A DNA stretch of 43,561 nucleotides from Utricularia gibba (Eukaryota; Streptophyta; Magnoliopsida; Lamiales; Lentibulariaceae): contig NEEC01000038.1 of NCBI GenBank assembly GCA_002189035.1, forward strand, positions 1 to 43,561, written 5' to 3'. Position 1 is the stretch's first letter, and every line of letters starts with the position of its first letter. The notes under the pieces were generated by a model. That model had not been told where the DNA came from. It did not search any database and saw nothing but the letters and a program-made list of their open reading frames with translations. The position numbers and the translations under genes are program-made. Of this stretch, positions 1 to 23,569 are shown piece after piece.

Positions 1-3000
1 AGTGCACCCAAGACCGCCTCTCAAGTATAAAAGTAAGTTGTTGAAAAATCATGTGGGGTGCACATGATATCGCAATTTAAACAAATGCATCATTTTTTTA
101 ATCGATTTGCATCCGGTTGACCTCATGAGCCATACAGAATCGGGGTCAAGGACCAAGTTCCCAGCGAGACTGGCCCCACAAAACGAGAAGCGGTTCCTTG
201 AAAAACCATGTAGGCAGCCCCCGAAAACCGAACGATATCAAATTTATCACTTTATTTGTGGGCTACAACTAACTCTCGGCGCAAGCCAAACCTTACCTTT
301 GTCCCGTTCAAGGTGCACCCAAGACCGCCTCCCCAAGTATAAAGTAAGTTGTTGAAAAAATCATGTGGGGTGCACGTGATATCGCAATTTAAACAAATGC
401 ATCATTTTTTTTAATCGATTTGCATCCGGTTGACCTCATGAGCCATACAGAATCGGGGTCAAGGACCAAGTTCCCAGCGAGACTGGCCGCCACAAAACGA
501 GAAGCGGTTCCTTGAAAAACCATGTAGGCAGCCCCCGAAAACCGAACGATAAAAATACATCACTTTATTTGCCGGGCTACAACTAACTCTCGGGCAAGCC
601 AAACCTTACCTTTGTCCCGTTCCAGCTGCACCCAAGACCGCCTCCTCAAGTATAAAGTAAGTTGTTGAAAAAATCATGTGGGGTGCACATGATATCGCAA
701 TTTAAACAAATGCATCATTTTTTTTAATCGATTTGCATCCGGTTGACCTCATGAGCCATACAGAATCGGGGTCAAGGACCAAGTTCCCAGCGAGACTGGC
801 CGCCACAAAACGAGAAGCGGTTCCTTGAAAAACCATGTAGGCAGCCCCGAAAACCGAACGATAATAAATACATCACTTTATTTGCGGGCTACAACTAACT
901 CTCGGCGCAAGCCAAACCTTACCTTTGTCCCGTTCAGCTGCACCCAAGACCGCCTCTCAAGTATAAAGTAAGTTGTTGAAAAAATCATGTGGGGTGCACG
1001 TGATATCGCAATTTAAACAAATGCATCATTTTTTTTAATCGATTTGCATCCGGTTGACCTCATGAGCCATACAGAATCGGGGTCAAGGACCAAGTTCCCA
1101 GCGAGACTGGCCGCCACAAAACGAGAAGCGGTTCCTTGAAAACCATGTAGGCAGCCCCGAAAACCGAACGATAATAAATACATCACTTTATTTGTGGGCT
1201 ACAACTAACTCTCGGCGCAAGCCAAACCTTACCTTTGTCCCGTTCAAGGTGCACCCCAAGACCGCCTCCTCAAGTATAAAGTAAGTTGTTGAAAAAATCA
1301 TGTGGGGTGCACGATATCGCAATTTAAACAAATGCATCATTTTTTTTAATCGATTTGCATCCGGTTGACCTCATGAGCCATACAGAATCGGGGTCAAGGA
1401 CCAAGTTCCCAGCGAGACTGGCCGCCACAAAACGAGAAGCGGTTCCTTGAAAAACCATGTAGGCAGCCCCCGAAAACCGAACGATAATAAATACATCACT
1501 TTATTTGCCGGGCTACAACTAACTCTCGGCGCAAGCCAAACCTTACCTTTGTCCCGTTCTGCACCCAAGACCGCCTCCTCAAGTATAAAGTAAGTTGTTG
1601 AAAAAAATCATGTGGGGTGCACGTGATATCGCAATTTAAACAAATGCATCATTTTTTTTAATCGATTTGCATCCGGTTGACCTCATGAGCCATACAGAAT
1701 CGGGGTCAAAACCAAGTTCCCAGCGAGACTGGCCGCCACAAAACGAGAAGCGGTTCCTTGAAAAACCATGTAGGCAGCCCCCGAAAACCGAACGATAAAA
1801 AATACATCACTTTATTTGTCGGGCTACAACTAACTCTCGGCGCAAGCCAAACCTTACCTTTGTCCGTTCCAGGTGCACCCAAGACCGCCTCCTCAAGTAT
1901 AAAGTAAGTTGTTGAAAAAATCATGTGGGGTGCACGTGATATCGCAATTTAAACAAATGCATCATTTTTTTTAATCGATTTGCATCCGGTTGACCTCATG
2001 AGCCATACAGAATCGGGGTCAAGGACCAAGTTCCCAGCGAGACTGGCCGCCACAAAACGAGAAGCGGTTCCTTGAAAAACCATGTAGGCAGCCCCGAAAA
2101 CCGAACGATATAAATATCACTTTATTTGTGGGGCTACAACTAACTCTCGGCGCAAGCCAAACCTTACCTTTGTCCCGTTCAAGGTGCACCCCAAGACCGC
2201 CTCCTCAAGTATAAAGTAAGTTGTTGAAAAAAATCATGTGGGGTGCACGTCATATCGCAATTTAAACAAATGCATCATTTTTTTTAATCGATTTGCATCC
2301 GGTTGACCTCATGAGCCATACAGAATCGGGGTCAAAAACCAATTCCCAGCGAGACTGGCCGCCACAAAACGAGAAGCGGTTCCTGAAAAACCATGTAGGC
2401 AGCCCCCGAAAACCGAACGATAAAAATACATCACTTTATTTGCCGGGCTACAACTAACTCTCGCCGCAAGCCAAACCTTACCTTTGTCCGTTCCAGCTGC
2501 ACCCAAGACCGCCTCCTCAAGTATAAAGTAAGTTGTTGAAAAAATCATGTGGGGTGCACATGATATCGCAATTTAAACAAATGCATCATTTTTTTTAATC
2601 GATTTGCATCCGGTTGACCTCATGAGCCATACAGGGGGTAAGGACCAAGTTCCCAGCGAGACTGGCCGCCACAAAACGAGAAGCGTTCCTTGAAAAACCA
2701 TGTAGGCAGCCCCGAAAACCGAACGATATAAATACATCACTTTATTTGTCGGGCTACAACTAACTCTCGGCGCAAGCCAAACCTTACCTTTGTCCCGTTC
2801 CAGCTGCACCCAAGACCGCCTCTCAAGTATAAAGTAAGTTGTTGAAAAAATCATGTGGGGTGCACGTGATATCGCAATTTAAACAAATGCATCATTTTTT
2901 TTAATCGATTTGCATCCGGTTGACCTCATGAGCCATACAGAATCGGGGTCAAGGACCAAGTTCCCAGCGAGACTGGCCGCCACAAAACGAGAAGCGGTTC

Positions 3001-5550
3001 CTTGAAAAACCATGTAGGCAGCCCCGAAAACCGAACGATAATAAATACATCACTTTATTTGCGGGCTACAACTAACTCTCGGCGCAAGCCAAACCTTACC
3101 TTTGTCCCGTTCCAGTGCACCCCAAGACCGCCTCCTCAAGTATAAAGTAAGTTGTTGAAAAAATCATGTGGGGTGCACGTGATATCGCAATTTAAACAAA
3201 TGCATTTTTTTTAATCGATTTGCATCCGGTTGACCTCATGAGCCATACAGAATCGGGTCAAGACCAAGTTCCCAGCGAGACTGGCCGCACAAAACGAGAA
3301 GCGGTTCCTTGAAAAACCATGTAGGCAGCCCCGAAAACCGAACGATAATAATCACTTTATTTGGGGCTACAACTAACTCTCGCCGCAAGCCAAACCTTAC
3401 CTTTGTCCCGTTTGCACCCAAGACCGCCTCCAAGTATAAAGTAAGTTGTTGAAAAAATCATGTGGGGTGCACATGATATCGCAATTTAACAAATGCATCA
3501 TTTTTTTAATCGATTTGCATCGGTTGACCTCATGAGCCATACAGAATCGGGGTAAAGGACCAATTTCCCAGCGAGACTGGCCGCCACAAAACGAGAAGCG
3601 GTTCCTTGAAAAACCATGTAGGTAGCCCCGAAAACCGAACGATAATAAATACATCACTTTATTTGCGGCTACAACTAACTCTCGGCGCAAGCCAAACCTT
3701 ACCTTTGTCCCGTTCCAGTGCACCCAAGACCGCCTCCTCAAGTATAAAGTAAGTTGTTGAAAAAAATCATGTGGGGTGCAGTGATATCGCAATTTAAACA
3801 AATGCATCATTTTTTTTAATCGATTTGCATCCGGTTGACCTCATGAGCCATACAGAATCGGGGTCAAGGACCAAGTTCCCAGCGAGACTGGCCGCCACAA
3901 AACGAGAAGCGGTTCCTTGAAAAACCATGTAGGCAGCCCCCGAAAACCGAACGATAAAAAATACATCACTTTATTTGCCGGGCTACAACTAACTCTCGGC
4001 GCAAGCCAAACCTTACCTTTGTCGTTCCAGTGCACCCAAGACCGCCTCTCAAGTATAAAGTAAGTTGTTGAAAAAATCATGTGGGGTGCACGTGATATCG
4101 CAATTTAAACAAATGCATCATTTTTTTTAATCGATTTGCATCCGGTTGACCTCATGAGCCATACAGAATCGGGGTCAAGGACCAAGTTCCCAGCGAGACT
4201 GGCCGCCACAAAACGAGAAGCGGTTCCTTGAAAAACCATGTAGGCAGCCCCCGAAAACCGAACGATAATAAATACATCACTTTATTTGTGGGCTACAACT
4301 AACTCTCGCGCAAGCCAAACCTTACCTTTGTCCCGTTCAAGCTGCACCAAGACCGCCTCCTCAAGTATAAAGTAAGTTGTTGAAAAAATCATGTGGGGTG
4401 CACGTGATATCGCAATTTAAACAAATGCATCATTTTTTTTAATCGATTTGCATCCGGTTGACCTCATGAGCCATACAGAATCGGGGTCAAGGACCAAGTT
4501 CCCAGCGAGACTGGCCGCCACAAAACGAGAAGCGGTTCCTTGAAAAACCATGTAGGCAGCCCCGAAAACCGAACGATAAAAAATACATCACTTTATTTGC
4601 ACAACTAACTCTCGGCGCAAGCCAAACCTTACCTTTGTCCCGTTCATGCACCCAAGACCGCCTCCTCAAGTATAAAGTAAGTTGTTGAAAAAATCATGTG
4701 GGGTGCACGTGATATCGCAATTTAAACAAATGCATCATTTTTTTTAATCGATTTGCATCCGGTTGACCTCATGAGCCATACAGAATCGGGGTCAAGGACC
4801 AAGTTCCCAGCGAGACTGGCCGCCACAAAACGAGAAGCGGTTCCTTGAAAAACCATGTAGGCAGCCCCGAAAACCGAACGATAATAAATACATCACTTTA
4901 TTTGGGGCTACAACTAACTCTCGGCGCAAGCCAAACCTTACCTTTGTCCCGTTCAGGTGCACCCCAAGACCGCCTCCCAAGTATAAAGTAAGTTGTTGAA
5001 AAAATCATGTGGGGTGCACGTGATATCGCAATTTAAACAAATGCATCATTTTTTTAATCGATTTGCATCCGGTTGACCTCATGAGCCATACAGAATCGGG
5101 GTCAAGGACCAAGTTCCCAGCGAGACTGGCCGCCACAAAACGAGAAGCGGTTCCTTGAAAAACCATGTAGGCAGCCCCGAAAACCGAACGATAATAAATA
5201 CATCACTTTATTTGTCGGGCTACAACTAACTCTCGGCGCAAGCCAAACCTTACCTTTGTCCCGTTCCAGCTGCACCCCAAGACCGCCTCCTCAAGTATAA
5301 AGTAAGTTGTTGAAAAAATCATGTGGGTGCACGTGATATCGCAATTTAAACAAATGCATCATTTTTTTTAATCGATTTGCATCCGGTTGACCTCATGAGC
5401 CATACAGAATCGGGGTCAAGGACCAAGTTCCCAGCGAGACTGGCGCCACAAAACGAGAAGCGGTTCCTTGAAAAACCATGTAGGCAGCCCCCGAAAACCG
5501 AACGATAATAAATACATCACTTTATTTGTCGGGCTACAACTAACTCTCGC
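1..5550 (+). repeat. Regular array block 1 (about 18 units)
   Basis: Anchors lie at 101, 414, 727, 1038, 1349, 1661, 1974, 2287, 2598, 2904, 3214, 3509, 3819, 4130, 4442, 4747, 5057 and 5371. Spacing is 295-314 bp. Units differ mainly by one- or two-base changes in C, A and T runs, at ctctcg(g/c)cgc, and at the bases following actttatttg. Four units (61, 686, 2557, 3470) carry CACATG for CACGTG, with no regular period, so I see no higher-order repeat. Confidence 0.93.
1249..1312. repeat. Inverted repeat 2: GTGCACCCC / GGGGTGCAC, 46-nt loop
   Basis: GTGCACCCC (1249-1257) and GGGGTGCAC (1304-1312) are perfect 9-bp reverse complements. The right arm is nearly constant across units. The left arm varies (gtgcaccc, ctgcacccc, tgcacccc), so many units have a 7-9 bp stem. 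The loop holds ccgcctcctcaag, TATAAA and ttgaaaaaatc. It is similar in geometry to inverted repeat 1 but does not sit at the homologous place in the other half-unit. Confidence 0.6.
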
Positions 5551-5700
5551 GCAAGCAAGCCAAACCTCCTCACCTTATCGTCCATCGATTTGCATCCGGT
5601 TGACCTCATGAGCCATACAGAATCACCCCCAGCGAGACCGCCTCCCAAGTAATAAATATCACTTTATTTGTACAGTTGTTGAAAGAAAGTCATGTGGGGT
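5551..5700 (+). repeat. Rearranged junction containing a half-length unit
   Basis: The regular array breaks at a gcaagcaagcc stutter. The anchor at 5584 is followed by the next at 5743, only 159 bp on. Within this short unit the beta sequence cccagcgagac continues as alpha cgcctcccaagta. The switch lies at the homologous gac..ccgcc word of the two halves. A stray aataaatatcactttatttg fragment from alpha then replaces the expected taaagtaag. Regular units resume at once. Confidence 0.7.
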
Positions 5701-6101
5701 GCACGTGATATCGCAATTTAAACAAATGCATCATTTTTTTTAATCGATTTGCATCCGGTTGACCTCATGAGCCATACAGAATCGGGGTCAAGGACCAAGT
5801 TCCCAGCGAGACTGGCCGCCACAAAACGAGAAGCGGTTCCTTGAAAAACCATGTAGGCAGCCCCCGAAAACCGAACGATATAAATACATCACTTTATTTG
5901 TCGGGCTACAACTAACTCTCGCCGCAAGCCAAACCTTACCTTTGTCCCGTTCAGGTGCACCCCAAGACCGCCTCCCCAAGTATAAAGTAAGTTGTTGAAA
6001 AAATCATGTGGGGTGCACGTGATATCGCAATTTAAACAAATGCATCATTTTTTTTAATCGATTTGCATCCGGTTGACCTCATGAGCCATACAGAATCGGG
6101 G

Positions 6102-6158
6102 TCAAGGACCAAGTTCCCAGCGAGACTGGCCGCCACAAAACGAGAAGCGGTTCCTTGA
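6102..6158. repeat. Inverted repeat 1: TCAAGGA / TCCTTGA, 43-nt loop
   Basis: TCAAGGA at 6102-6108 is the exact reverse complement of TCCTTGA at 6152-6158. Allowing one bulged T extends the stem to tcaaggacc / ggttccttga. The arms are present in nearly every complete unit. This could form a cruciform or RNA hairpin, but a 7-bp stem with a long loop is weak, so a structural role is inference only. Confidence 0.6.
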
Positions 6159-6193
6159 AAAACCATGTAGGCAGCCCCCGAAAACCGAACGAT

Positions 6194-6213
6194 AATAAAT
6201 ACATCACTTTATT
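6194..6213. repeat. Small AT hairpin with AATAAA on both strands
   Basis: AATAAA-tacatcac-TTTATT is a perfect 6-bp inverted repeat with an 8-nt loop. Each arm reads as the canonical polyadenylation hexamer on its own strand. It recurs in units with the gataataaat spelling. Other units carry gataaaaaat, gataaaaat or gatataaat and lose part of the left arm. If the satellite is transcribed it could promote 3' end formation in either direction, but an AT-rich chance origin is equally plausible. Confidence 0.4.
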
Positions 6214-6296
6214 TGTCGGGCTACAACTAACTCTCGGCGCAAGCCAAACCTTACCTTTGTCCCGTTCCAGCTGCACCCCAAGACCGCCTCCTCAAG

Positions 6297-6308
6297 TATA
6301 AAGTAAGT
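6297..6308 (+). promoter_or_regulatory. TATAAA followed by GTAAGT (possible promoter / donor-like words)
   Basis: Every regular unit contains ctcaagTATAAAGTAAGTtg. TATAAA matches a TATA-box core and GTAAGT matches the 5' splice-donor consensus. No matching gene, initiator or acceptor is recognised. These are short words repeated by the array, so they indicate at most a potential for satellite transcription. Confidence 0.2.
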
Positions 6309-6331
6309 TGTTGAAAAAATCATGTGGGGTG

Positions 6332-6337
6332 CACGTG
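6332..6337. promoter_or_regulatory. CACGTG palindrome (E-box / G-box word)
   Basis: The palindrome CACGTG follows ggggtg in most units. In at least twelve units it is CACATG instead (for example 61, 686, 2557, 3470, 8525, 9311, 16064, 27238, 30754, 32774, 42002, 42727). CACGTG is a core recognised by bHLH or bZIP proteins in many eukaryotes. Binding here is untested inference. Confidence 0.25.
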
Positions 6338-6343
6338 ATATCG

Positions 6344-6384
6344 CAATTTAAACAAATGCATCATTTTTTTTAATCGATTTGCAT
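6344..6384 (+). other. AT-rich segment with T8 tract and ATTTGCAT octamer
   Basis: The stretch caatttaaac, aaatgcatca, an 8-T run, then taatcgATTTGCAT is the most AT-rich part of the unit and among its most invariant. ATTTGCAT (6377-6384) is the exact reverse complement of the POU-domain octamer ATGCAAAT. Rigid T tracts affect nucleosome placement and recur here once per unit. The octamer has no known meaning outside animals and may be coincidence. Confidence 0.4.
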
Positions 6385-9300
6385 CCGGTTGACCTCATGA
6401 GCCATACAGAATCGGGGTCAAGGACCAAGTTCCCAGCGAGACTGGCCGCCACAAAACGAGAAGCGGTTCCTTGAAAAACCATGTAGGCAGCCCCGAAAAC
6501 CGAACGATAATAAATACATCACTTTATTTGTCGGGCTACAACTAACTCTCGGCGCAAGCCAAACCTTACCTTTGTCCCGTTGTGCACCCCAAGACCGCCT
6601 CCTCAAGTATAAAGTAAGTTGTTGAAAAAATCATGTGGGGTGCACGTGATATCGCAATTTAAACAAATGCATCATTTTTTTTAATCGATTTGCATCCGGT
6701 TGACCTCATGAGCCATACAGAATCGGGGTCAAGGACCAAGTTCCCAGCGAGACTGGCCGCCACAAAACGAGAAGCGGTTCCTTGAAAAACCATGTAGGCA
6801 GCCCCCGAAAACCGAACGATAATAAATACATCACTTTATTTGGGGCTACAACTAACTCTCGCGCAAGCCAAACCTTACCTTTGTCCCGTTCAGTGCACCC
6901 AAGACCGCCTCCTCAAGTATAAAGTAAGTTGTTGAAAAAATCATGTGGGGTGCACCGCAATTTAAACAAATGCATCATTTTTTTTAATCGATTTGCATCT
7001 TGACCTCATGAGCCATACAGAATCGGGGTCAAGGACCAAGTTCCCAGCGAGACTGGCCGCCACAAAACGAGAAGCGGTTCCTTGAAAAACCATGTAGGCA
7101 GCCCCGAAAACCGAACGATAATAAATACATCACTTTATTTGTGGGCTACAACTAACTCTCGCGCAAGCCAAACCTTACCTTTGTCCCGTTCCATGCACCC
7201 CAAGACCGCCTCCTCAAGTATAAAGTAAGTTGTTGAAAAAATCATGTGGGGTGCACGTGATATCGCAATTTAAACAAATGCATCATTTTTTTTAATCGAT
7301 TTGCATCCGGTTGACCTCATGAGCCATACAGAATCGGGGTCAAGGACCAAGTTCCCAGCGAGACTGGCCGCCACAAAACGAGAAGCGGTTCCTTGAAAAA
7401 CCATGTAGGCAGCCCCGAAAACCGAACGATAATAAATACATCACTTTATTTGTCGGGCTACAACTAACTCTCGGCGCAAGCCAAACCTTACCTTTGTCCG
7501 TTCAGGTGCACCCAAGACCGCCTCCTCAAGTATAAAGTAAGTTGTTGAAAAAATCATGTGGGGTGCACGTGATATCGCAATTTAAACAAATGCATCATTT
7601 TTTTTAATCGATTTGCATCCGGTTGACCTCATGAGCCATACAGAATCGGGGTCAAGGACCAAGTTCCCAGCGAGACTGGCCGCCACAAAACGAGAAGCGG
7701 TTCCTTGAAAAACCATGTAGGCAGCCCCCGAAAACCGAACGATAATAAATACATCACTTTATTTGGGGCTACAACTAACTCTCGGCGCAAGCCAAACCTT
7801 ACCTTTGTCCCGTTCCAACTCCTCAAGTATAAAGTAAGTTGTTGAAAAAATCATGTGGGGTGCACGTGATATCGCAATTTAAACAAATGCATCATTTTTT
7901 TTAATCGATTTGCATCCGGTTGACCTCATGAGCCATACAGAATCGGGGTCAAGACCAAGTTCCAGCGAGACTGGCCGCCACAAAACGAGAAGCGGTTCCT
8001 TGAAAAACCATGTAGGCAGCCCCGAAAACCGAACGATAAAAATACATCACTTTATTTGTGGGGGCGCAAGCCACCGCACATGTATAAAGTAAGTTGTTGA
8101 AAAAATCATGTGGGGTGCACGTGATATCGCAATTTAAACAAATGCATCATTTTTTTTAATCGATTTGCATCCGGTTGACCTCATGAGCCATACAGAATCG
8201 GGGTCAAGGACCAAGTTCCCAGCGAGACTGGCCGCCACAAAACGAGAAGCGGTTCCTTGAAAAACCATGTAGGCAGCCCCGAAAACCGAACGATAAAAAT
8301 ACATCACTTTATTTGACAACGGCGCATTAAAACCCCAAGACCGCCTCCCCACAGTCGGGCAGTTCGGGGTCAAGGACCAAGTTCCCAGCGAGACTGGCCG
8401 CCACAAAACGAGAAGCGGTTCCTTGAAAAACCATGTAGGCAGCCCCGAAAACCGAACGATGTGTTAAGACCCAAGACCGCCTCCTCAAGTATAAAGTAAG
8501 TTGTTGAAAAAATCATGTGGGGTGCACATGATATCGCAATTTAAACAAATGCATCATTTTTTTAATCGATTTGCATCCGGTTGACCTCATGAGCCATACA
8601 GAATCGGGGTCAAGGACCAAGTTCCCAGCGAGACTGGCCGCCACAAAACGAGAAGCGGTTCCTTGAAAACCATGTAGGCAGCCCCCGAAAACCGAACGAT
8701 GAGGCGCAAGCCAAACCTTACAGACCTCCTCAACATGTGGGGTGCACGTGATATCGCAATTTAAACAAATGCATCATTTTTTTTAATCGATTTGCATCCG
8801 GTTGACCTCATGAGCCATACAGAATCGGGGTCAAGGACCAAGTTCCCAGCGAGACTGGCCGCCACAAAACGAGAAGCGGTTCAGCTAGAAACTAACCATG
8901 TCCCGTTCCAGGCACCCAAGACCGCCTCCTCAAGTATAAAGTAAGTTGTTGAAAAAATCATGTGGGGTGCACGTGATATCGCAATTTAAACAAATGCATC
9001 ATTTTTTTTAATCGATTTGCATCCGGTTGACCTCATGAGCCATACAGAATCGGGGTCAAGGACCAAGTTCCCAGCGAGACTGGCCGCCACAAAACGAGAA
9101 GCGGTTCCTTGAAAAACCATGTAGGCAGCCCCCGAAAACCGAACGATAATAAATACATCACTTTATTTGTCGGGCTACAACTAACTCTCGCGCAAGCCAA
9201 ACCTTACCTTTGTCCCGTTCCAGTGCATGTGGGGTGCACGTGATATCGCAAGCATCCGCCTCCTCAAGTATAAGGAGTAAGACTTGTGTAGGCAAAAATC

Positions 9301-9440
9301 ATGTGGGGTGCACATGATATCGCAATTTAAACAAATGCATCATTTTTTTTAATCGATTTGCATCCGGTTGACCTCATGAGCCATACAGAATCGGGGTCAA
9401 GGACCAAGTTCCCAGCGAGACTGGCACAAAACGAGAAGCG

Positions 9441-9672
9441 GACCCATGAGCATTAAAACAAGGCAATCGCTTGCAAAATCGATTTGCATCCGTATTTGTG
9501 AGCGATGTACTAACTCTCGGAAGCCAAGTTTCCTACATCACCTTTGCGGGCAAGCGGTTTCCTTGTCAAAAACCTTACATGTGTTAAGCACCCCAAGTCA
9601 TGTGGGGTGCAACAAATGCATCATCGATAATCCGGTTTGCCTTTCATGTTGACGCATGAGACCTCACAATAT
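9441..9672 (+). repeat. Highly degenerate satellite stretch
   Basis: Only short satellite words survive: gatttgcatccg, actaactctcgg, catgtggggtgc and aaatgcatcatcgat. They are separated by bases that fit no unit position, such as gcattaaaacaaggcaatcg. Several of these words keep the order they have in a unit. An apparent 68-codon open frame across it has no recognisable domain and is considered chance. Confidence 0.6.
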
Positions 9673-10215
9673 TAAACAAATGCATCATTTTTTTTAATCG
9701 ATTTGCATCCGGTTGACCTCATGAGCCATACAGAATCGGGGTCAAGGACCAAGTTCCCAGCGAGACTGGCCGCCACAAAACGAGAAGCGGTTCCTTGAAA
9801 AACCATGTAGGCAGCCCCGAAAACCGAACGATAATAAATACATCACTTTATTTGACAACTAACTCTCGGCGCAAGCCAAACCTTACCTAAAAATGCATCA
9901 CCAATTTGCATCCGATTTGCATCCGGTTGACCTCATGAGCCATACAGAATCGGGGTCAAGGTTCTTTCCTTGAAGCAAAAACCTACATCACTTTATTTGC
10001 GGGCTACAACTAACTCTCGGCGCAAGCCAAACCTTACAGGTCCTCAAGTATAAAGTAAGTTGTTGAAAAAATCATGTGGGGTGCACCAATAAACAAATGC
10101 ATCATTTTTTTTAATCGATTTGCATCCGGTTGACCTCATGAGCCATACCGAAGTATTAAGTTACATCACTTTATTTGTTGGCGCTTACATGTCGCAATCG
10201 GCATCATTTTTTTTA

Positions 10216-10362
10216 ATCGATTTGCATCCGGTTGACCTCATGAGCCATACAGAATCCAAGGACCAAGTTCCCAGCGAGACTGGCCGCCACAAAACGAGAA
10301 GCGGTTCCTTGAAAAACCATGTAGGCAGCCCCGAAAACCGAACATGATAATAATTTATGCAC
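10216..10362 (+). repeat. Half-length hybrid unit (147 bp)
   Basis: From the anchor at 10216 the beta half runs cleanly into the start of alpha as far as ccgaac. It then reads atgataataatttatgcac and re-enters beta at acatcgatttgcatcc (10361). The switch from alpha aataaatacatc to beta aaatgcatc...atcgattt lies in the homologous segment of the two halves, removing about one half-unit. It complements the unit at 5584, which switches beta to alpha. Confidence 0.6.
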
Positions 10363-12250
10363 ATCGATTTGCATCCGGTTGACCTCATGAGCCATACAGA
10401 ATCGGGGTCTCTTCAAGCGCATGTCCTGTTGTCCGTTCAGGTCCTCAAGTATAAAGTAAGTTGTTGAAAAAATCACACCAAGCGCAACCTCAAGTATAAA
10501 GTTTTTCCTTGAAAAACCATGTAGGCATCACTTTATTTGTGGGCTTACATTTGCCTCGCCAAATGCATCATTTTTTTTAATCGATTTGCATCCGGTTGAC
10601 CTCATGAGCCATACAGAATCGGGGTCAAGGACCAAGTTCCCAGCGAGACTGGCCGCCACAAAACGAGAAGCGGTTCCTTGAAAAACCATGTAGGCAGCCC
10701 CGAAAACCGAACGATACCAGATCATAATTCCTCAAGTATAAAGTAAGTTGTTGAAAAAATCATGTGGCACTGCACTGCCGGGCGCAACTAAATCTTTGTT
10801 TTACGTGTTAAGACCTCCTCAAGTATAAAGTAAGCATGTGGGGTGCACGCAGCATCATCGATTTGCATAAAGGACCAAGTTTCACAAATTCATGTAGGCT
10901 GCACGTGAGAAGCAATTTAATCAAATGCATCATTTTTTTTAATCGATTTGCATCCGGTTGACCTCATGAGCCATACAGAATCGCAAGGACCCCCAGCGAG
11001 ACTGGCCGCCACAAAACGAGAAGCGGTTCCTTGAAAAACCATGTAGGCAGCCCCGAAAACCGAACGATAATAAATACATCACTTTATTTGTCGGGCTACA
11101 ACTAACTCTCGGCGCAAGCCAAACCTTACCTGTCCGCAACACCCCATATTCAAGTATAAAGTAAGTTGTTGAAAAAATCATGTGGGGTGCACGTGATATC
11201 GCAATTTAAACAAATGCATCATTTTTTTTAATCGATTTGCATCCGGTTGACCTCATGAGCCATACAGAATCGGGGTCAAGGACCAAGTTCCCAGCGAGAC
11301 TGGCCGCCACAAAACGAACGGTTCCTTGAAAAACCAGTAGGCAGCCCCGAAACACCGAACGTATAATAAATACTATCATTTATTACAACTACGCAACTGC
11401 GCTCGCGAGCCAAACCTTACCTTTGTCCCGTTCCAGGTGCACCCAAGAAATATAAAGTAAGTTGTTGAAAAAATCATGTGGGGTGCACGTGATATCGCAA
11501 TTTAAACAAATGCATCATTTTTTTTAATCGATTTGCATCCGGTTGACCTCATGAGCCATACAGAATCGGGGTCAAGGACCAAGTTCCCAGCGAGACTGGC
11601 CGCCACAAAACGAGAAGCGGTTCCTTGAAAAACCATGTAGGCAGCCCCGAAAACCGAACGATAATATAATCACTACATCACTACAATTTGCATCGGGCGC
11701 AAGCCAAACTCTTTGTCCGTGAGTTCCAGCTGCACCCAAGTAGCCTCCTCAAGTATAAAGTGTTGTGTGAAAAATGTGGGGACGTGATATCGCAATTTAA
11801 ACAAATGCATCATTTTTTTAATCGATTTGCATCCGGTTGACCTCATGAGCCATACAGAATCGGGGTCAAGGACCAAGTTCCCAGCGAGACTGGCCGCCAC
11901 AAAACGAGAAGCGGTTCCTTGAAAAACCATGTAGGCAGCCCCGAAAACCGAACGATAATAAATACATCACTTTATTTGCCTTCTACACTTCCTCCATCTC
12001 ATCAACGCGCTTTTTGTCCCGTTCAAGTGCACCCCAAGACCGCCTCCTCAACGTGATATCGCAAGCGATTTGCATTTGACCTCAAGCCATAATCATGCGA
12101 GACTGGGGTGTCATGTGCAATTAAAACAAGTATAAAGCATCAATTTTTTGCATCATCGATTTGCATCCGGTTGACCTCATGAGCCATACAGAATCGGGGT
12201 CAAGGACCAAGTTCCCAGCGAGACTGGCCGCCACAAAACGAGAAGCGGTT

Positions 12251-12470
12251 CATGAGGGTAGGCAGCCAAGGCGAACGATACGAATCGACTTTTTCCTTGG
12301 TAGGCTGTCGGGCTACAACTAACCTCGGGCAAGCCATTAAAGTTTTAGTTCATCCGTGTACTACAAATATTAAACAAATGCATCATTTTTTTTAAAATTT
12401 TGTTGTCATGAGTACAGAATCGCAATGACCAAGGCCACCTCATGAGCGAGATGCGAGACCGCCACAAAAC
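12251..12470 (+). repeat. Highly degenerate satellite stretch
   Basis: After gaagcggtt the sequence becomes catgagggtaggcagcc and continues with short satellite words (gggctacaactaac, aaatgcatca plus a T run) in imperfect spelling. It returns to a normal core at gccacaaaacgag near 12471. No gene or insertion is evident. Confidence 0.6.
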
Positions 12471-14593
12471 GAGAAGCGGTTCCTTGAAAAACCATGTAGG
12501 CAGCCCCCGAAACCGAACGATAATAAATACATCACTTTATTTGTCGGGCTACAACTAACTCTTCAAGCCAAACCTTACCTTTGTCGTTCCAGGTGCACCC
12601 AAAAACCATGTAGGCCTCAAGTATAAAGTATTGTTTACATCACTTTATTTGTCGGGCTACAACTAACTCTCGGCGCAAGCCAAACCTTACCTTTGTCATG
12701 TGCGCAATTTAAACAAATGCATCATTTTTTTTAATCGATTTGCATCCGGTTGACCTCATGAGCCATACAGAATCGGGGTCAAGGACCAAGTTCCCAGCGA
12801 GACTGGCCGCCACAAAACGAGAAGCGGTTCCTTGAAAAACCATGTAGGCAGCCCCGAAAACCGAACGATGCGCAAGCGATGTCCTCAAGTATACATCACT
12901 GATATCGCAATTTAAACAAATGCATCATTTTTTTTAATCGATTTGCATCCGGTTGACCTCATGAGCCATACAGAATCGGGGTCAAGGACCAAGTTCCCAG
13001 CGAGACTGGCCGCCACAAAACGAGAAGCGGTTCCTTGAAAAACCATGTAGGCAGCCCCGAAAACCGAACGATAATAAATACATCACTTTATTTGTGTTAC
13101 AGTGCACCCAAGACCGCCTCCTCAAGTATAAAGTAAGTTGTTGAAAAAATCATGTGGGGTGCGGCGCAAGCCATACAGAATCGGGGTCTTCCCAGCGAGA
13201 CTTTCCTTGAAAAACCATGTTAATCATCAGGTGCACCCAAGACCTCCTCAAGTATAAAGTAAGTTGTTGAAAAAATCATGTGGGGTGCACGTGATATCGC
13301 AATTTAAACAAATGCATCATTTTTTTTAATCGATTTGCATCCGGTTGACCTCATGAGCCATACAGAATCGGGGTCAAGGACCAAGTTCCCAGCGAGACTG
13401 GCCGCCACAAAACGAGAAGCGGTTCCTTGAAAAACCATGTAGGCAGCCCCGAAAACCGAACGAACATCACTTTATTTGACAACTAACTATTAATGTCCTC
13501 ACATCACCCAAGCATCGAATCCGGCCTCACCATATAAGGACCAAAGCCTTGTTTGCTGCACGTGTCCCCTCAATCATTAAACAACATGCATCAAATGCAT
13601 CATTTTTTTTAATCGATTTGCATCCGGTTGACCTCATGAGCCATACAGAATCGGGGTCAAGGACCAAGTTCCCAGCGAGACTGGCCGCCACAAAACGAGA
13701 AGCGGTTCCTTGAAAAACCATGTAGGCAGCCCCCGAAAACCGAACGATAATAAATACATCACTTTATTTGTCGGGCTACAACTAACTCTCGCGCAAGCCA
13801 AACCTTACCTTTGGTTCCTGCACCCCAAGACCGCCTCCTCAAGTATAAAGTAAGTTGTTGAAAAAATCATGTGGGGTGCACACGCAGCAATTTTTTTTAA
13901 TCGATTTGCATCCGGTTGACCTCATGAGCCATACAGAATCGGGGTCAAGGACCAAGTTCCCAGCGAGACTGGCCGCCACAAAACGAGAAGCGGTTCCTTG
14001 AAAAACCATGTAGGCAGCCCCCGAAAACCGAACGATAATAAATACATCACTTATATTTGTCAACTCCTCAACTCTCATCATCGATTTGCGCAAGGAATCC
14101 AAGTTACCTTTGAAAAACCATGTAGGCAGCCCCCGAAAACCGAACGATAATCATCACTTTATTTGTCGGGCTACAACTAACTCTCAAGCCAAACCTTACC
14201 TTTGTCCGTTCAGACCGACCTCTCAAGTCAACCGCAAGCATCCCATTGAAAATATCATGTTGAAAAACCACGTCATCACTTTATTTGCCGGGCTACAACT
14301 AACTCTCGCGCAAGCCAAACCTTACCTTTGTCAATGTATAAAGTCATCAATTCGCAATTTAAACAAATGCATCATTTTTTTTAATCGATTTGCATCCGGT
14401 TGACCTCATGAGCCATACAGAATCGGGGTCAAGGACCAAGTTCCCAGCGAGACTGGCCGCCACAAAACGAGAAGCGGTTCCTTGAAAAACCATGTAGGCA
14501 GCCCCCGAAAACCGAACGATAAAAATACATCACTTTATTTGGGCTACAACTAACTCTCGGCGCAAGCCAAACCTTACATTCCTCAAGCATGTG

Positions 14594-15110
14594 GGGTGCA
14601 GGCAATTTAAACAAATGCATCATTTTTTTAATCGATTTGCATCCGGTTGACCTCATGAGCCATACAGAATCGGGGTCAAGGACCAAGTTCCCAGCGAGAC
14701 TGGCCGCCACAAAACGAGAAGCGGTTCCTTGAAAAACCATGTAGGCAGCCCCCGAAAACCGAACGATAATAAATACATCACTTTATTTGTCGGGCTACAA
14801 CTAACTCTCGCGCAAGCCAAACCTTACCTTTGTCCGTTCAGTGCACCCAAGACCGCCTCCTCAAGTATAAAGTAAGTTGTTGAAAAAATCATGTGGGGTG
14901 CACGTGATATCGCAATTTAAACAAATGCATCATTTTTTTTAATCGATTTGCATCCGGTTGACCTCATGAGCCATACAGAATCGGGGTCAAGGACCAAGTT
15001 CCCAGCGAGACTGGCCGCCACAAAACGAGAAGCGGTTCCTTGAAAAACCATGTAGGCAGCCCCCGAAAACCGAACGATAATAAATACATCACTTTATTTG
15101 TGTACAACTA
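14594..15110 (+). repeat. Regular array block 3a
   Basis: Anchors lie at 14631 and 14942 (311 bp apart). The block ends abruptly at acaactaac, which is joined to atgtggggtgcac at 15108-15120, skipping the second part of alpha. Confidence 0.85.
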
Positions 15111-15440
15111 ACATGTGGGGTGCACGTGATATCGCAATTTAAACAAATGCATCATTTTTTTAATCGATTTGCATCCGGTTGACCTCATGAGCCATACAGA
15201 ATCGGGGTCAAGGACCAAGTTCCCAGCGAGACTGTTCCTTGTGTTGTGGTTAAGACCGCCTCCTCAAGTATAAAGTAAGTTGTTGAAAAAATCATGTGGG
15301 GTGCACCCGCGCAACCTCATGAGCCATACAGAATCAATGCATATTTTTTTCGACAACTAACTCTCGCGCAAGCCAAACCTTACCTTTGGTTGGTGCACCT
15401 CCTCAAGTATAAAGTAAGTTGTTGAAAAAATCATGTGGGG
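15111..15440 (+). repeat. Truncated and shuffled units between blocks 3a and 3b
   Basis: The anchor at 15163 is followed by a core cut at gcgagactg, then ttccttgtgttgtggttaagac, a gcgcaacctca junction at 15308-15319, and a short alpha piece. Normal sequence returns near 15400. Confidence 0.75.
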
Positions 15441-16500
15441 TGCACGTCGCAATTTAAACAAATGCATCATTTTTTTTAATCGATTTGCATCCGGTTGACC
15501 TCATGAGCCATACAGAATCGGGGTCAAGGACCAAGTTCCCAGCGAGACTGGCCGCCACAAAACGAGAAGCGGTTCCTTGAAAAACCATGTAGGCAGCCCC
15601 GAAAACCGAACGATAATAAATACATCACTTTATTTGTCGGGCTACAACTAACTCTCGGCAAGCCAAACCTTACCTTTGTCCCGTTCCAGCTGCACCCCAA
15701 GACCGCCTCCTCAAGTATAAAGTAAGTTGTTGAAAAAATCATGTGGGGTGCACGTGATATCGCAATTTAAACAAATGCATCATTTTTTTTAATCGATTTG
15801 CATCCGGTTGACCTCATGAGCCATACAGAATCGGGGTCAAGGACCAAGTTCCCAGCGAGACTGGCCGCCACAAAACGAGAAGCGGTTCCTTGAAAAACCA
15901 TGTAGGCAGCCCCGAAAACCGAACGATAATAAATACATCACTTTATTTGTCGGGCTACAACTAACTCTCGGCGCAAGCCAAACCTTACCTTTGTCCCGTT
16001 CCAGCTGCACCCAAGACGCCTCCTCAAGTATAAAGTAAGTTGTTGAAAAAATCATGTGGGGTGCACATGATATCGCAATTTAAACAAATGCATCATTTTT
16101 TTTAATCGATTTGCATCCGGTTGACCTCATGAGCCATACAGAATCGGGGTCAAGGACCAAGTTCCCAGCGAGACTGGCCGCCACAAAACGAGAAGCGGTT
16201 CCTTGAAAAACCATGTAGGCAGCCCCGAAAACCGAACGATAAAAATACATCACTTTATTTGTGGGCTTAACTCTCGGCGCAAGCCAAACCTTACCTTTGT
16301 CCCGTTCACACCCAAGACCGCCTCCTCAAGTATAAAGTAAGTTGTTGAAAAAATCATGTGGGGTGCAATATCGCAATTTAAACAAATGCATCATTTTTTT
16401 AATCGATTTGCATCCGGTTGACCTCATGAGCCATACAGAATCGGGGTCAAGTTCCCAGCGAGACTGGCCGCCACAAACGAGAAGCGGTTCCTTGAAAAAC
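15441..16500 (+). repeat. Regular array block 3b
   Basis: Anchors lie at 15479, 15792, 16105 and 16402, spaced 313, 313 and 297 bp. These are full-length units. The block ends at ccatgtagtagagttacag near 16505. Confidence 0.9.
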
Positions 16501-19500
16501 CATGTAGTAGAGTTACAGACTAACATGTGGGGTGCACGGCGCAATCGCAAATGCCATTAAGTTCCCAGCGAGACTGGCGCCACAAAACGAGAAGCGGTTC
16601 CTTGAAAAACCATGTAGGCAGCCCCGAAAACCGAACCATCACTTTATTTGCGGGCGGTTAATAAGTATACATCACCGCAATTTGCATCCGGGTTGACCTC
16701 ATGAGCCATACAGAATAAGTTCCCAGCGAGACTGTTCCTTGAAGTTGTCGGGGTTACAGTGCACCCAAGACCGCCTCCTCAAGTATAAAGTAAGTTGTTG
16801 AAAAAATCATGTGGGGTGCACGTGATATCGCAATTTAAACAAATGCATCATTTTTTTTAATCGATTTGCATCCGGTTGACCTCATGAGCCATACAGAATC
16901 GGGGTCAAGGACCAAGTTCCCAGCGAGACTGGCCGCCACAAAACGAGAAGCGGTTCCTTGAAAAACCATGTAGGCAGCCCCCGAAAACCGAACGATGACG
17001 CCATGATTGTCCTTGAAAAACCATGGGGCGCCCCGAAACCACTTAATAAATACATCACTTTATTTGTGTTACCAACTCCTCAACCTCGGCGCAATTTATT
17101 TTTTTTTTGTTGTGCAAGCCAAACCTTAAGACCTCCTCAATATAAAGCATCATCGATTTGGGTTGACCTCAAGGAATCCAAGTTCCCAGCGAGACTGGCC
17201 GCCACAAAACGAGAAGCGGTTCCTTGAAAAACCATGTAGGCAGCCCCGAAAACCGCGATTTACATCACTGTCGGGCTACAACTAACTCTCGGCGCAAGCC
17301 AGAATCCTTCCCAGCGAGACTGGCCGCCACAAAACGAGAAGCGGTTCCTTGAAAAACCATGTAGGCAGCCCCGAAAACCGAACGATAATCATCACTTTAT
17401 TTGTTGCTAAGACCGCCTCCCAAGTATAAAGTAAGCCAAAAAAATGTTGTCATGACGTGATATCGCATGTGGGGTGCATTTAATTTACAAATGCATCATT
17501 TTTTTCGATTTGCATCCGGTTGACCTCATGAGCCATACAGAATCGGGGTCAAGGACCAAGTTCCCAGCGAGACTGGCCGCCACAAAACGAGAAGCGGTTC
17601 CTTGAAAAACCATGTAGGCAGCCCCGAAAACCGAACGATAATACGAGCATTACAGAATCGTCAAGGACCAAGCGCAAGAGCGAGACTGCGAGACTGGCCG
17701 CCACAAAACGAGAAGCGGTTCCTTGAAAAACCATGTAGGCAGCCCCCCGAACGATGTGTTAATTACATGTGGGGTGCACGTGATATCGCAATTTAAACAA
17801 ATGCATCGATTTGCATCCGGTTGACCTCATGAGCCATACAGAATCGGGGTCAAGGTTCTTTGTGCAAAAATTACATCAGTCGGGCTACGTTACCAGCTGC
17901 ACCCCAAGACCGCCTCCTCAAGTATAAAGTAAGTTGTTGAAAAAATCATGATGCAATTTAAACAAATGCATCATTTTTTTTAATCGATTTGCATCCGGTT
18001 GACCTCATGAGCCATACAGAATCGGGGTCAAGGACCAAGTTCCCAGCGAGACTTTCCTTGAAAAACCATGTAGGCATGTCACAACTAACTCTCGGCGCAA
18101 GCCAAACCTTACCTTTGTCCCGTTCCATCGCATCTCGGCATCATGAGCCATCACAGAATCGGGGTCAAGGACCAAGTTCCCAGCGAGACTGGCCGCCACA
18201 AAACGAGAAGCGGTTCCTTGAAAAACCATGTAGGCAGCCCCGAAAACCGAACGATAATAAATACATCACTTTATTTGTACAACTAACTCTCGGCGCCAAG
18301 ATGCCTTTGCATCCGATTTGCATCCGGTTGACCTCATGAGCCATACAGAATCGGGGTCAAGGACCAAGTTCCCAGCGAGACTTGTGTTCATGTGGGGTTA
18401 CACTAACATGTGGGGTGCACGTGATATCGCAATTTAAACAAATGCATCATTTTTTTTAATTGATTTGCATCCGGTTGACCTCATGTAAGCATGTGGGGTG
18501 CATACAGCATCATCGGGGTTGACCTCATGAGGACCAAGTTCCCAGCGAGACTGGCCGCCACAAAACGAGAAGCGGTTCCTTGAAAAACCATGTAGGCAGC
18601 CCCCGAAAACCGAACGATAATAAATACATCACTTTATTTTGGGCTTACAACTCCTCAACATCTCGCGCATCAGCCAATCCTTACCTTTGTCCCCATGTTA
18701 CATCACTTTATTTGAGGTTACAGGTCCTCAAGTATAAAGTAAGTTGTTGAAAAAATCATGTGGGGTGCACGTGATATCGCAATTTAAACAAATGCATCAT
18801 TTTTTTAATCGATTTGCATCCGGTTGACCTCATGAGCCATACAGAATCGGGTCAAGGACCAAGTTCCCAGCGAGACTGGCCGCCACAAAACGAGAAGCGG
18901 TTCCTTGAAAAACCATGTAGGCAGCCCCCGAAAACCGAACGATAATAAATACATCACTTTATTTGCTGCGCATTACCTTTGTCCCGTTCCAACCTCCTCA
19001 AGTATAAAGTCATCATCGGCATCATTTTTTTTAATCGCAAGCCATACAGAATCGGGGTCCAAGTTTAGCAGAAATCCTCAAGCATGACCGCAAGGGCGAG
19101 TACCATGTAGAGAAGCGGTTCCTTGAAAAACCATGTAGGCAGCCCCCGAAAACCGAACGATAATAAATACATCACTTTATTTGTGGGTTTAACTACATCT
19201 CGGCGCAAGAGCCAACAGAATCGGGGTCAAGGACCAAGTTCCCAGCGAGACTGGCCGCCACAAAACGAGAAGCGGTTCCTTGAAAAACCATGTAGGCAGC
19301 CCCGTTCATCACTTTATTTGCTGCACCCAAGACCGACCGCCTCCTCAAGTATAAAGTCAAGATTTGCATTGAATGAAACAGAATCGGGGTCAAGGACCAA
19401 GTTCCCAGTGGGGTGCACATGACAACTAACTCTCGGCGCAAGCCAAACCTTACCTAAAAGACAAATGCATCATTTTTTTTAAATCGATTTGCATCCGGTT

Positions 19501-22500
19501 GACCTCATGAGCCATACAGAATCGGGGTCAAGGACCAAGTTCCCAGCGAGACTGGCCGCCACAAAACGAGAAGCGGTTCCTTGAAAAACCATGTAGGCAG
19601 CCCCGAAAACCGAACGATAATAAATACATCACTTTATTTGTGGCATAAATCCTCAAGTATAAAGTAAGTTGTTGAAAAAATCATGCACCGGCGCAACCTC
19701 ACGAATAAGGACCAAGTTCCCAGCGAGACTGGCCGCCACAAAACGAGAAGCGGTTCCTTGTTGTGGGGCACCCCCTCGCGAAAGTATTGCTTGTGTTGTG
19801 TGATAACATGCAATTTAAACAAATGCATCATTTTTTTTAATCGCAACCTCATGAGCCATACAGAATCGGGGTCAAGGACCAAGTTCCCAGCGAGACTGGC
19901 CGCCACAAAACGAGAAGCGGTTCCTTGAAAAACCATGTAGGCATGAGCGCATTACAGATACATCAATTTAAACAAATGCATCATTTTTTTTAATCGATTT
20001 GCATCCGGTTGACCTCATGAGCCATACAGAATCGGGTCAAGGACTTCTGGCCGCCACAAAACGAGAAGCGGTTCCTTGAAAAACCATGTAGGCAGCCCCC
20101 GAAAACCGAACGATAATAAATACATCACTTTATTTGTGCCACAAAAGCAACCGCGGATTTGCCTTGACCTCAAGCCATACAGAATAAGGACCAAGTTCCT
20201 TGTGTATGTGTTAACTCCTCAAGTATAAAGTAAGTTGTTGAAAAAATCATGTGGGGTGCACGTGATATCGCAATTTAAACAAATGCATCATTTTTTTTAA
20301 TCGATTTGCATCCGGTTGACCTCATGAGCCATACAGAATCGGGGTCAAGGACCAAGCGAGACTTTCCTTGAAAAACCATGTAGGCAGCCGAGAACGATGG
20401 CCGCCACCAAAACGAGAAAGCGGTTCCTTAAAAAACCATGTAGGTTGAGCCCCGAAGGACCAAGTTCCCAGCGAGACTGATAATAAATACATCACTTTAT
20501 TTGACGGGCTTACAACTAACATCACCGGCGCAAGCCGGTTTTTGTGTTACAGTGTAAGACCGCCTCCTCCCACGCGCAGTGCATCATTGAATCGATCATC
20601 CGGTTGACCTCATGAGCCATACAGAATCGGGGTCAAGGACCAAGTTCCCAGCGAGACTGGCCGCCACAAAACGAGAAGCGGTTCCTTGAAAAACCATGTA
20701 GGCAGCCCCGAAAACCGAACGATACATCACTTTATTTGACAACTAACTCTCGATTACCTATTCACATCACGTACAGCGGGCAAGGACCAAGTTCCCAGCG
20801 AGACTTTCCTTGAAAAACCTGTAGTGAACCTCCTCAAGTATAAAGTAAGTTGTTGAAAAAATCATGATAATAAATACATCGCAATTTATCAAATGCAACT
20901 TTTTTTTGATAATTGTCCCGTTCCACCTCGCCATACAGAATCGGGGTCAAGGACCAAGTTCCCAGCGAGAACAAAACGAGAAGCGGTTCCTTGAAAAACC
21001 ATGTAGGCAGCCCCGAAAACCGAACGATAATAAATACATCACTTTATTTGTACGTACAACTAACCTCGGCATGATTTGCATCCGGTTGCCCCCCGAGAAT
21101 TGGTTGACGTTTATTACCACGCGGGCAAGCGCCAATTCCTTGAAAAACCATGTAGGCAGCCCCCGAAAACCGAACGATAATAAATACATCACTTTATTTG
21201 TGCGCTTACAGACTCCTCAAGTATAAAGTAAGTTGTTGAAAAAATCATGTGCTCGGCAGCAAGCCAGAATCCTTTTTCCTTGAAAAACCATGTAGGCATG
21301 ACGCATTAAGACCTACCTCAGCGCAACACCGACAAGTTCCCAGCGAGACTGGCCGCCACAAAACGAGAAGCGGTTCCTTGAAAAACCATGTAGTACGAAG
21401 TTTATTACATCACGCGGGGGCAAGGACCAAGTTCTTTCCTTGAAAAACCTGTAGGCAGCCCCGAGAAACCGAACAAGTATAAAGTCATCGTTGTTGAATT
21501 GTCGGGCTGTGGTCACGTGAAACCTCTAATTTAAAAGACAAGTATAAAGCATCATTTTTTTTCCGATTTGCATCCGGTTGACCTCATGAGCCATACAGAA
21601 TCGGGGTCAAGGACCAAGTTCCCAGCGAGACTGGCCGCCACAAAACGAGAAGCGGTTCCTTGAAAAACCATGTAGGCAGCCCCGAAAACCGATAATAAAT
21701 ACATCACTTTATTTGTGGGCTACAATGCATCTCGGCATCATGCAAGCCAGAATCATTCCCAGCGAGACTTTCCTTGTGTTGAGTTACAGAAAGACCGCCT
21801 CCTCAAGTATAAAGTAAGTTGTTGAAAAAATCATGTGGGGTGCACGTGATATCGCAATTTAAACAAATGCATCATTTTTTTTAATCGATTTGCATCCGGT
21901 TGACCTCATGAGCCATACAGAATCGGGGTCAAGGACCAAGTTCCCAGCGAGACTGGCCGCCACAAAACGAGAAGCGGTTCCTTGAAAAACCATGTAGGCA
22001 GCCCCGAAAACCGAACGATAATAAATACATCACTTTATTTGTGGCGCTTACAACTCCTCAACATCTCGGCGCAACCTCAAGGAATAAGGAGTTTCCTTTG
22101 TATGTGTTAACTCCTCAAGTATAAAGTAAGTTGTTGAAAAAATCATGTGGGGTGCACGTGATATCGCAATTTAAACAAATGCATCATTTTTTTTAATCGA
22201 TTTGCATCCGGTTGACCTCATGAGCCATACAGAATCGGGGTCAAGGACCAAGTTCCCAGCGAGACTGGCCGCCACAAAACGAGAAGCGGTTCCTTGAAAA
22301 ACCATGTAGGCAAAAACCGATGTAGGCAGCCAAACCGAAAAGACCGTATACATGACGTGAATCGCAAAAACAAATGCATCATCGATTTGCATCCGGTTGA
22401 TCATGAGCCATACAGAATCGGGGTCTTCCCAGCGAGACTTAAAAACCATGTAGGCAGCAAAACCGAACCATCACTTTATTTGTCGGGCTACAACTAACTC

Positions 22501-23569
22501 TCGCGCAAGCCAAACCTTACCTTTGTCCCGTTCCAGTGCACCCAAGACCGCCTCCTCAAGTATAAAGTAAGTTGTTGAAAAAATCATGTGGGGTGCACCG
22601 CAATTTAAACAAATGCATCATTTTTTTTAATCGATTTGCATCCGGTTGACCTCATGAGCCATACAGAATCGGGGTCAAGGACCAAGTTCCCAGCGAGACT
22701 GGCCGCCACAATAGCGTTCCTTGAAAAACCATGTCATGCCCCGCAAAACCGATAATAAATACATCACTTTATTTGACGTTACAGCCACTAACATCTCGGG
22801 CAAAATTTGCGAGACTTTCCTTGAAAAACCATCATTGACGATTAATATCCTCACATCTCAATTTGCATCATTTTTTTTAATCGATTTGCATCCGGTTGAC
22901 CTCATGAGCCATACAGAATCGGGGTCAAGGACCAAGTTCCCAGCGAGACTGGCCGCCACAAAACGAGAAGCGGTTCCTTGAAAAACCATGTAGGCAGCCC
23001 CCGAAAACCGAACGATAATAAATACATCACTTTATTTGCACGTTACCAGTGCACCCCAAGACCGCCTCCTCAAGTATAAAGTAAGTTGTTCATCACCGCA
23101 ATTTAAACAAATGCATCATTTTTTTTAATCGATTTGCATCCGGTTGACCTCATGAGCCATACAGAATCGGGGTCATTTTTCCCCATGTTGGGGGCGCAAG
23201 CCAAACCTTAAGATCCTCAAGTATAAAGTAAGTTGTTGAAAAAATCATCACCGAAAAACCATCATGATATCCGGTTGACCTCATGAGCCATACAGAATCG
23301 GGGTTCCCAAGACTTTCCTTGAAAAACCATGTTACATCACTTTATTTGGGGGGCGCAAGCCAAACCTTACCTTTGACTGTATCCTCGCAAAAACAAATGC
23401 ATGATTTGCATCCGGTTGACCTCATGAGCCATACAGAATCGGGGTCAAGGACCAAGTTCCCAGCGAGACTTTCCTTGAAAAACCATGTTACATCACTTTA
23501 TTTGCTGGGCAAGCCAAACCTTACAACTCCTCAAGTATAAAGTAAGTTGTTGTCATGACCGCAAAAACA
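16501..23569 (+). repeat. Mosaic satellite region II
   Basis: This is the longest irregular stretch. Clean anchors occur at 16860, 17805, 17983, 18808, 19483, 19993, 20300, 21894, 22196, 22381, 22630, 22880 and 23128. Damaged ones occur near 16679, 17153, 17506, 18311, 18459, 19840, 20592, 21570 and 23403. Near-intact units stand at about 16760-17000 and 21790-22050. Elsewhere cores such as cagcgagactggccgccac or ttgaaaaaccatgtaggc are joined out of register, for example three partial beta cores in a row at 20350-20480. Nothing coding or foreign is recognisable. Confidence 0.78.
20350..20482 (+). repeat. Serial partial copies of one half-unit, order broken
   Basis: A core cut short (ccaagcgagactttccttg) is followed by ggccgccaccaaaacgag with aaaaaaccatgtagg, then gccccgaaggaccaagttcc, then gcgagactgataataaat. 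The word order of the normal unit is therefore broken by a backward jump. Most other mosaic pieces show forward jumps only. Confidence 0.55.

Follow-up and report, generated by a model that had tools for sequence, protein, structure and literature searches.

A 312-bp satellite of Utricularia gibba that very probably grew by doubling of a shorter tandem unit

Introduction

That satellite DNA can grow by multiplying a shorter unit is known (PMC4053949). Satellites are usually either too homogeneous or too diverged to reveal their origin. In the relevant passages of PMC4053949, the 343-bp centromere satellite of New World monkeys has weakly related halves and derives from a doubled shorter repeat, and in the AB dimer of Sorghum, blocks of two variants repeat as a single unit. 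A satellite of tomato is described as having a relative among the subrepeats of the ribosomal intergenic spacer (PMC2679016). For Utricularia gibba, putative centromeric regions were reported to be free of satellite repeats, as worded in the part of PMC8333044 that concerns them. A literature search on centromeres, tandem repeats and satellites of this species, and on Lentibulariaceae, gave no title naming this satellite among those listed.

Here we describe a satellite with a unit of about 312 bp from this plant. Like the monkey satellite, it has a unit whose two halves, called A and B below, are related and very probably come from a doubled shorter repeat. The 171-bp form of the monkey satellite is known from related species, whereas we found no ~156-bp form here, and the monkey repeat is a centromere satellite, a function for which the 312-bp family would be no more than a candidate. 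As in the Sorghum dimer, two-unit blocks repeat in two of our sampled arrays (L027 and L047). However, divergence between the basic A and B is far greater than between the Sorghum variants, which differ by SNPs, and, unlike in Sorghum, the larger registers sit atop the A-B alternation in some arrays. Finally, like the tomato satellite, the 312-bp family has a putative spacer relative, a repeat of 132 bp that may have its home there; in contrast to the tomato case, either of the two might descend from the other.

Results

The window, by which we mean the whole 43.6-kb stretch of DNA that was analysed, is one contig (C260) in an assembly of 516 contigs and 100.09 Mb, and consists of ~312-bp satellite in a single orientation. 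Words of 12 bases taken from the unit consensus cover 87% of its bases; opposite-strand unit words were found nowhere in the window, and neither was any stretch of at least 150 bases devoid of 12-base consensus words. Its first part is highly regular, with TRF rows at 2-5567 and 5674-8063 (matches 95-96%) and an identity of 0.990-0.994 between units at lags 1 to 6 within positions 1-8000 (24 units scored). The features discussed below are as follows.

1..8063, plus strand: regular part of the array, period ~311-314 bp, one orientation (TRF and unit identity)
6155..6470, plus strand: unit named in the preliminary description, with full-length matches elsewhere in the window
6163..6319, plus strand: A half, begins CCATGTAGGC (family-alignment cut; homologous to the B half)
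6320..6478, plus strand: B half, begins TCATGTGGGG (family-alignment cut; 85/159 columns identical to A)
6281..6371, plus strand: best-conserved block, copy 1 (local alignment with copy 2; positions mapped from the consensus)
6439..6529, plus strand: best-conserved block, copy 2, at offset 158 (local alignment with copy 1; positions mapped from the consensus)
8064..43561, plus strand: rest of the contig, regular runs (e.g., 24251-25723 and 42372-43561) and scrambled stretches (TRF, short exact fragments in 2-kb bins and phase jumps)

The unit at 6155..6470 has at least 298 scored places across the assembly. The B half at 6320..6478 extends 8 bases into the following unit, and the two copies of the best-conserved block are identical in 60/94 columns of their local alignment. 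Small indels between near-identical units cluster in the A half, at consensus positions ~61-62, 81 and 108-119 (34 units).

The preliminary description, made from the letters of the window, had read the ~312-bp unit as a diverged dimer of a ~156-bp unit, quoting word pairs shared by the halves. Counted on the sequence, these pairs lie where they had been placed and agree in 15/18 columns each. Globally aligned, 6155-6310 and 6311-6470 exceeded all 1000 dinucleotide shuffles under three scoring schemes (z of 4.6, 5.1 and 5.9); the local alignment of the same segments was less even, being matched or bettered by 1, 27 and 0 of 1000 shuffles under the three schemes. We then used a consensus of the array built from 34 units and let the split point float by scanning all rotations at intervals of 4. 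Its best half-to-half local alignment, at an offset of ~158, scored 20 against 10.6 ± 1.7 for shuffles (maximum 19; 0/400 as good), and the anatomical halves aligned globally with 85/159 identical columns (z 6.5; 0/1000 shuffles as good). G/C columns agreed in 39/71 cases and A/T columns in 46/83, showing that the homology is not restricted to A/T-rich words. Given that shuffles were beaten and that G/C columns agree equally often, the similarity of the halves goes beyond chance and beyond A/T-rich words. Whole units (0.990-0.994 identical) are far more alike than halves. The gapless circular autocorrelation of the window does not single out the half-unit offset: offset 106 (0.326) reaches as high a value as 154 (0.323) and 156 (0.313). 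By itself the window carries a modest, suggestive signal of half homology; the dimer origin is secured by related arrays.

We sampled the starts of 40 small contigs, 34 of which were readable, including three (C15, C18 and C21) picked as known hits. The 312-bp family occurred in 20/34 of these contigs (17/31 without C15, C18 and C21) and was the most abundant tandem repeat in this sample of contig starts, ahead of satellites of ~340 bp and ~535 bp (4 contigs each). Several of the sampled arrays are diverged subfamilies with the same layout as the window. Local alignment of their halves gave scores of 40 in L031 (106/159 columns identical), 36 in L032 (96/147), 32 in L034 (76/111) and 29 in L035 (72/109), against shuffle maxima of 17-19, and a family consensus scored 37. 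Three close relatives of the window scored 21-22, and the L027 score was reached by 1/500 shuffles. Offsets between the halves were 147-161 and the alignments collinear in 9/9 consensuses, one of them the family consensus, and in 8/8 arrays tested by global alignment none of 1000 shuffles was as good. The halves are thus closer to each other in some relatives and in the family consensus than in the window, which fits the prediction of an old dimer. Two of the sampled loci, L034 and L052, contain diverged 312-type copies adjoining AT-rich tandem repeats of ~62 bp, possible array edges.

A tree of both halves from 22 arrays (21 sampled loci and the window consensus) separated the 22 A halves from the 22 B halves by a branch of 0.47 with a support of 1.000, and mean identity between arrays was 0.81 for A-A, 0.79 for B-B and 0.52 for A-B. 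Since all A are split from all B across arrays, there was one dimerisation, older than the sampled subfamilies. The reading of the unit as a diverged dimer was therefore borne out by the half homology within the window, by its stronger form in the relatives and by the A/B split in the tree.

The arrays also indicate the unit in which the satellite turns over. Exact word neighbours at half-unit spacing across the genome, counted with words from the window's subfamily and for A-B and A-A pairs only, numbered 5270 for A-B and 18 for A-A. In 12 stretches of other contigs we counted 571 A-B/B-A neighbours and 10 A-A/B-B neighbours (751 and 41 with the window added). Given this alternation and the very few A-A neighbours, the dimer is the probable unit of exchange, and the earlier suggestion that homogenisation acted on the dimer after doubling agrees with the near-identity of whole units in the window and with the 5270 to 18 ratio.

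Four relatives showed larger registers, each measured on 2-6 pairs per lag. Identity in L027 was 0.985-0.993 at even lags and about 0.917 at odd lags, and in L047 it was 0.994 at lag 2 and about 0.894 at lags 1 and 3, both indicating two-unit registers. Four-unit registers were seen in L023 (0.993 at lag 4, other lags 0.865-0.899) and L031 (1.000 at lag 4, other lags 0.790-0.856); given the little or no rise at lag 2 in these two, they did not necessarily arise by doubling a block of two. No larger register was found in the window, where identity was compared at lags 1 to 6. Candidate three-unit registers in L011 and L018 were rejected, as identity at lag 3 (0.984 and 0.986) was slightly above the 0.966-0.979 of the remaining lags and was hardly raised at lag 6.

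No 156-bp monomeric array was seen in the 34 readable contig starts that were sampled, and the exact A-A word pattern, searched genome-wide, occurred at its 18 places without forming a run (at most three consecutive, in C175). A tandem repeat of ~153 bp with an A-rich run (L068 1-776, at the start of C255) was considered and discarded, having no match to the family profile. The nearest relative repeats at 132 bp. The preliminary description had also pointed to the nucleosome-like size of the ancestral unit and of its dimer. The length does fit, whereas the power of A/T dinucleotides at 10.0-10.4 bp did not exceed that of shuffles in 6/6 consensuses, a weak test; unit length is thus the whole of the nucleosome argument.

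The 132-bp repeat lies in pairs or a triplet within a GC-rich composite of 816-836 bp. In L037, L060 and L097 this composite is built from 132-bp and 52-bp tandem units. Searched with the profile of the whole 312-bp family, the 132-bp repeat scored 23.8 bits (E 7e-8; controls 1.0 bits, shuffles 2.4), with a match that runs through the A core and on into the B core (profile positions 9-212). The A profile alone gave 14.0 bits; with the B profile alone the score was 8.9 bits (E 0.0067), little more than the 6.3 bits that shuffles reached. By profile comparison, the 132-bp repeat is homologous to the 312-bp family. Pairwise tests of single halves, with four versions of the 132-bp repeat and 300 shuffles, varied: the halves of L034 mostly exceeded all 300 shuffles, those of L031 and L051 did so only with some versions, and those of the window did not beat the shuffles (5-53/300 as good). 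Some comparisons with L035 and L051 favoured the opposite orientation. A tree that included the 132-bp copies placed them in neither the A clade nor the B clade. Clusters of the composite, at hand-picked positions, follow one another at 12.1-12.2 kb in four contigs; in a fifth the intervals are 12.9 and 13.8 kb. The 12.1-12.2 kb spacing fits 45S rDNA, and on this ground the home of the 132-bp repeat is perhaps the rDNA spacer. No rRNA match, 5.8S rRNA included, was found in the readable sequence, and 5S rDNA sits in different contigs (C222-C224, C227 and C229).

Two subfamily patterns of the 312-bp family match 7116 and 8791 places in the assembly. Assuming a ~312-bp unit per match and pattern sets that do not overlap, this amounts to ~5.0 Mb, or ~5% of the assembly. 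In 17 contigs, sixteen of them longer than 2 Mb, we read 1 kb at either end. Three of these ends carried the family: the end of C213 opposite its telomeric start, the end of C402 and the start of C414. The ~340-bp satellite was found at five contig ends and the 535-bp satellite at one, and telomere repeats lie at each end of C3 and of C4. Among the matches listed, which are apparently ordered by contig number, no exact match to three patterns fell in C1-C4, which are among the largest contigs. Given these placements at contig ends and the lack of C1-C4 among the matches listed, the family, where it is placed, is internal and not next to a telomere, and it is not evidently on every chromosome. 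We infer that its role is that of non-coding bulk heterochromatin and not of a universal centromere repeat.

The other two satellites, ~340 bp (L033, L039, L057 and L058) and ~535 bp (L028, L029, L040 and L059), are abundant as well and also occur at the inner ends of large contigs. We compared the 312-bp family with both and rejected homology, as shuffles were not exceeded in 8/8 comparisons (lowest 48/300). Outside the plastid contig, broken or partial rbcL-like stretches were seen in C2, C375, C451 and C515. Transfer of plastid DNA to the nucleus or mitochondrion would leave such stretches.

The contig of the window is unusual in its junctions. We compared phase jumps larger than 20 bp in 13 stretches, including the window, and found 282, 18 of them close to half a unit. 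Normalised to the shift in bp, there were 1.71 jumps at 147-157 bp and 1.1-2.0 at 70-147 bp. The 43.6-kb window had 216 large jumps and 111 kb of other contigs had 66, so that jumps were ~8 times denser in the window. At 8064-42000 the unit words are scrambled, with junctions mostly unique to this contig and far denser than in other contigs of the same subfamily. Most of the novel 24-mers (20,054/23,455) were confined to just one of the 11 contigs compared, as would also be the case for a long unique region. The concentration of jumps in C260 and the contig-unique 24-mers suggest, short of proof, a poor consensus, and the scrambled stretches of the window are probably consensus error of the assembly.

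Discussion

We propose that an ancestral short tandem unit, about 130-160 bp long, became fixed as a two-copy block, A-B, and that unequal exchange would then have spread and homogenised this block as a whole, giving the 312-bp repeat. A and B would have drifted apart because they no longer recombined in register, the dimer would have radiated into several subfamilies, and turnover in some arrays may by now involve larger blocks, of two or four units. This course, from short unit to A-B dimer, homogenised 312-bp repeat, subfamilies and, in some arrays, larger blocks, is in our judgement very probable. Its parts that can be read directly from the arrays are the homology of A and B, one duplication preceding the sampled subfamilies, the A-B alternation, the larger registers in a few relatives and a homologous 132-bp repeat; we infer unequal exchange as the driver.

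The similarity of the halves might be attributed to chance aided by A/T-rich words, as the window's local score of 20 is close to the shuffle maximum of 19 and offset 106 autocorrelates equally well without gaps. Given that G/C columns match as often as A/T columns, that 8/8 arrays exceed all 1000 shuffles globally and that relatives score twice the shuffle maximum, we judge this reading already refuted, with a negligible residual probability. Alternatively, the halves might share a selected protein-binding box rather than descend from duplication of a whole unit. The word AAATGCATCA is indeed found in many family consensuses, twice in some (L031 and L034), and also in 2/4 of the 535-bp consensuses, but the halves of L031 and L032 are collinear over 147-159 columns, far exceeding one box, and the 312-bp family as a whole does not exceed shuffles against the 340- and 535-bp satellites. 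A shared box without duplication is therefore very improbable, and duplication of a whole short unit remains our reading of the A-B homology.

Two further alternatives concern the surroundings of the dimer. The preliminary description had held that the dimer origin explains several odd junctions, a claim that was not supported by the comparison of contigs, where half-unit shifts show no clear excess over other shifts. Genuine half-unit exchanges between A and B would account for the 17/216 large jumps of the window that fall near a half unit, and a few A-A neighbours exist, 5 of the 18 genome-wide being in C260. However, the ~8-fold jump density of this contig fits a poor consensus better, as does the confinement of most novel 24-mers to one of 11 contigs, though a long unique region gives the same. 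We regard half-unit exchange as improbable, if slightly less so than the shared box, and assembly error as the probable source of the scrambling. As for the 132-bp repeat, it could be a degraded offshoot of the satellite within the GC-rich composite rather than a relative of the pre-dimer monomer. The direction of descent is unreadable from a single genome, the B profile alone barely exceeds shuffles, the halves of the window do not beat them, and some half comparisons fit the other orientation. Against this, the 132-bp copies stand inside neither the A nor the B clade of the tree that includes them. We consider an offshoot unlikely, although considerably less so than the other alternatives.

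The broadest form of our proposal is more tentative, and we consider it less likely than not. It states that a superfamily of ~5 Mb, located mostly in unplaced contigs and at the inner ends of a few chromosome-arm contigs of a tiny genome with reportedly satellite-free putative centromeres, may have arisen through successive multiplication (from 130-160 bp to 312 bp to two-unit or four-unit blocks) of a repeat that it shares with the ribosomal spacer, several of the steps being extant and the route readable and datable in one genome. As an example of satellite growth by a known process, the 312-bp family is new, clear and unusually well preserved. Given that an old dimer and a shorter tandem relative persist in one genome alongside larger registers of younger age, the order and the age of these steps become testable. 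In Utricularia gibba, a satellite family of ~5% of the assembly also qualifies the published remark, as worded in that part of PMC8333044, on putative centromeric regions free of satellites.
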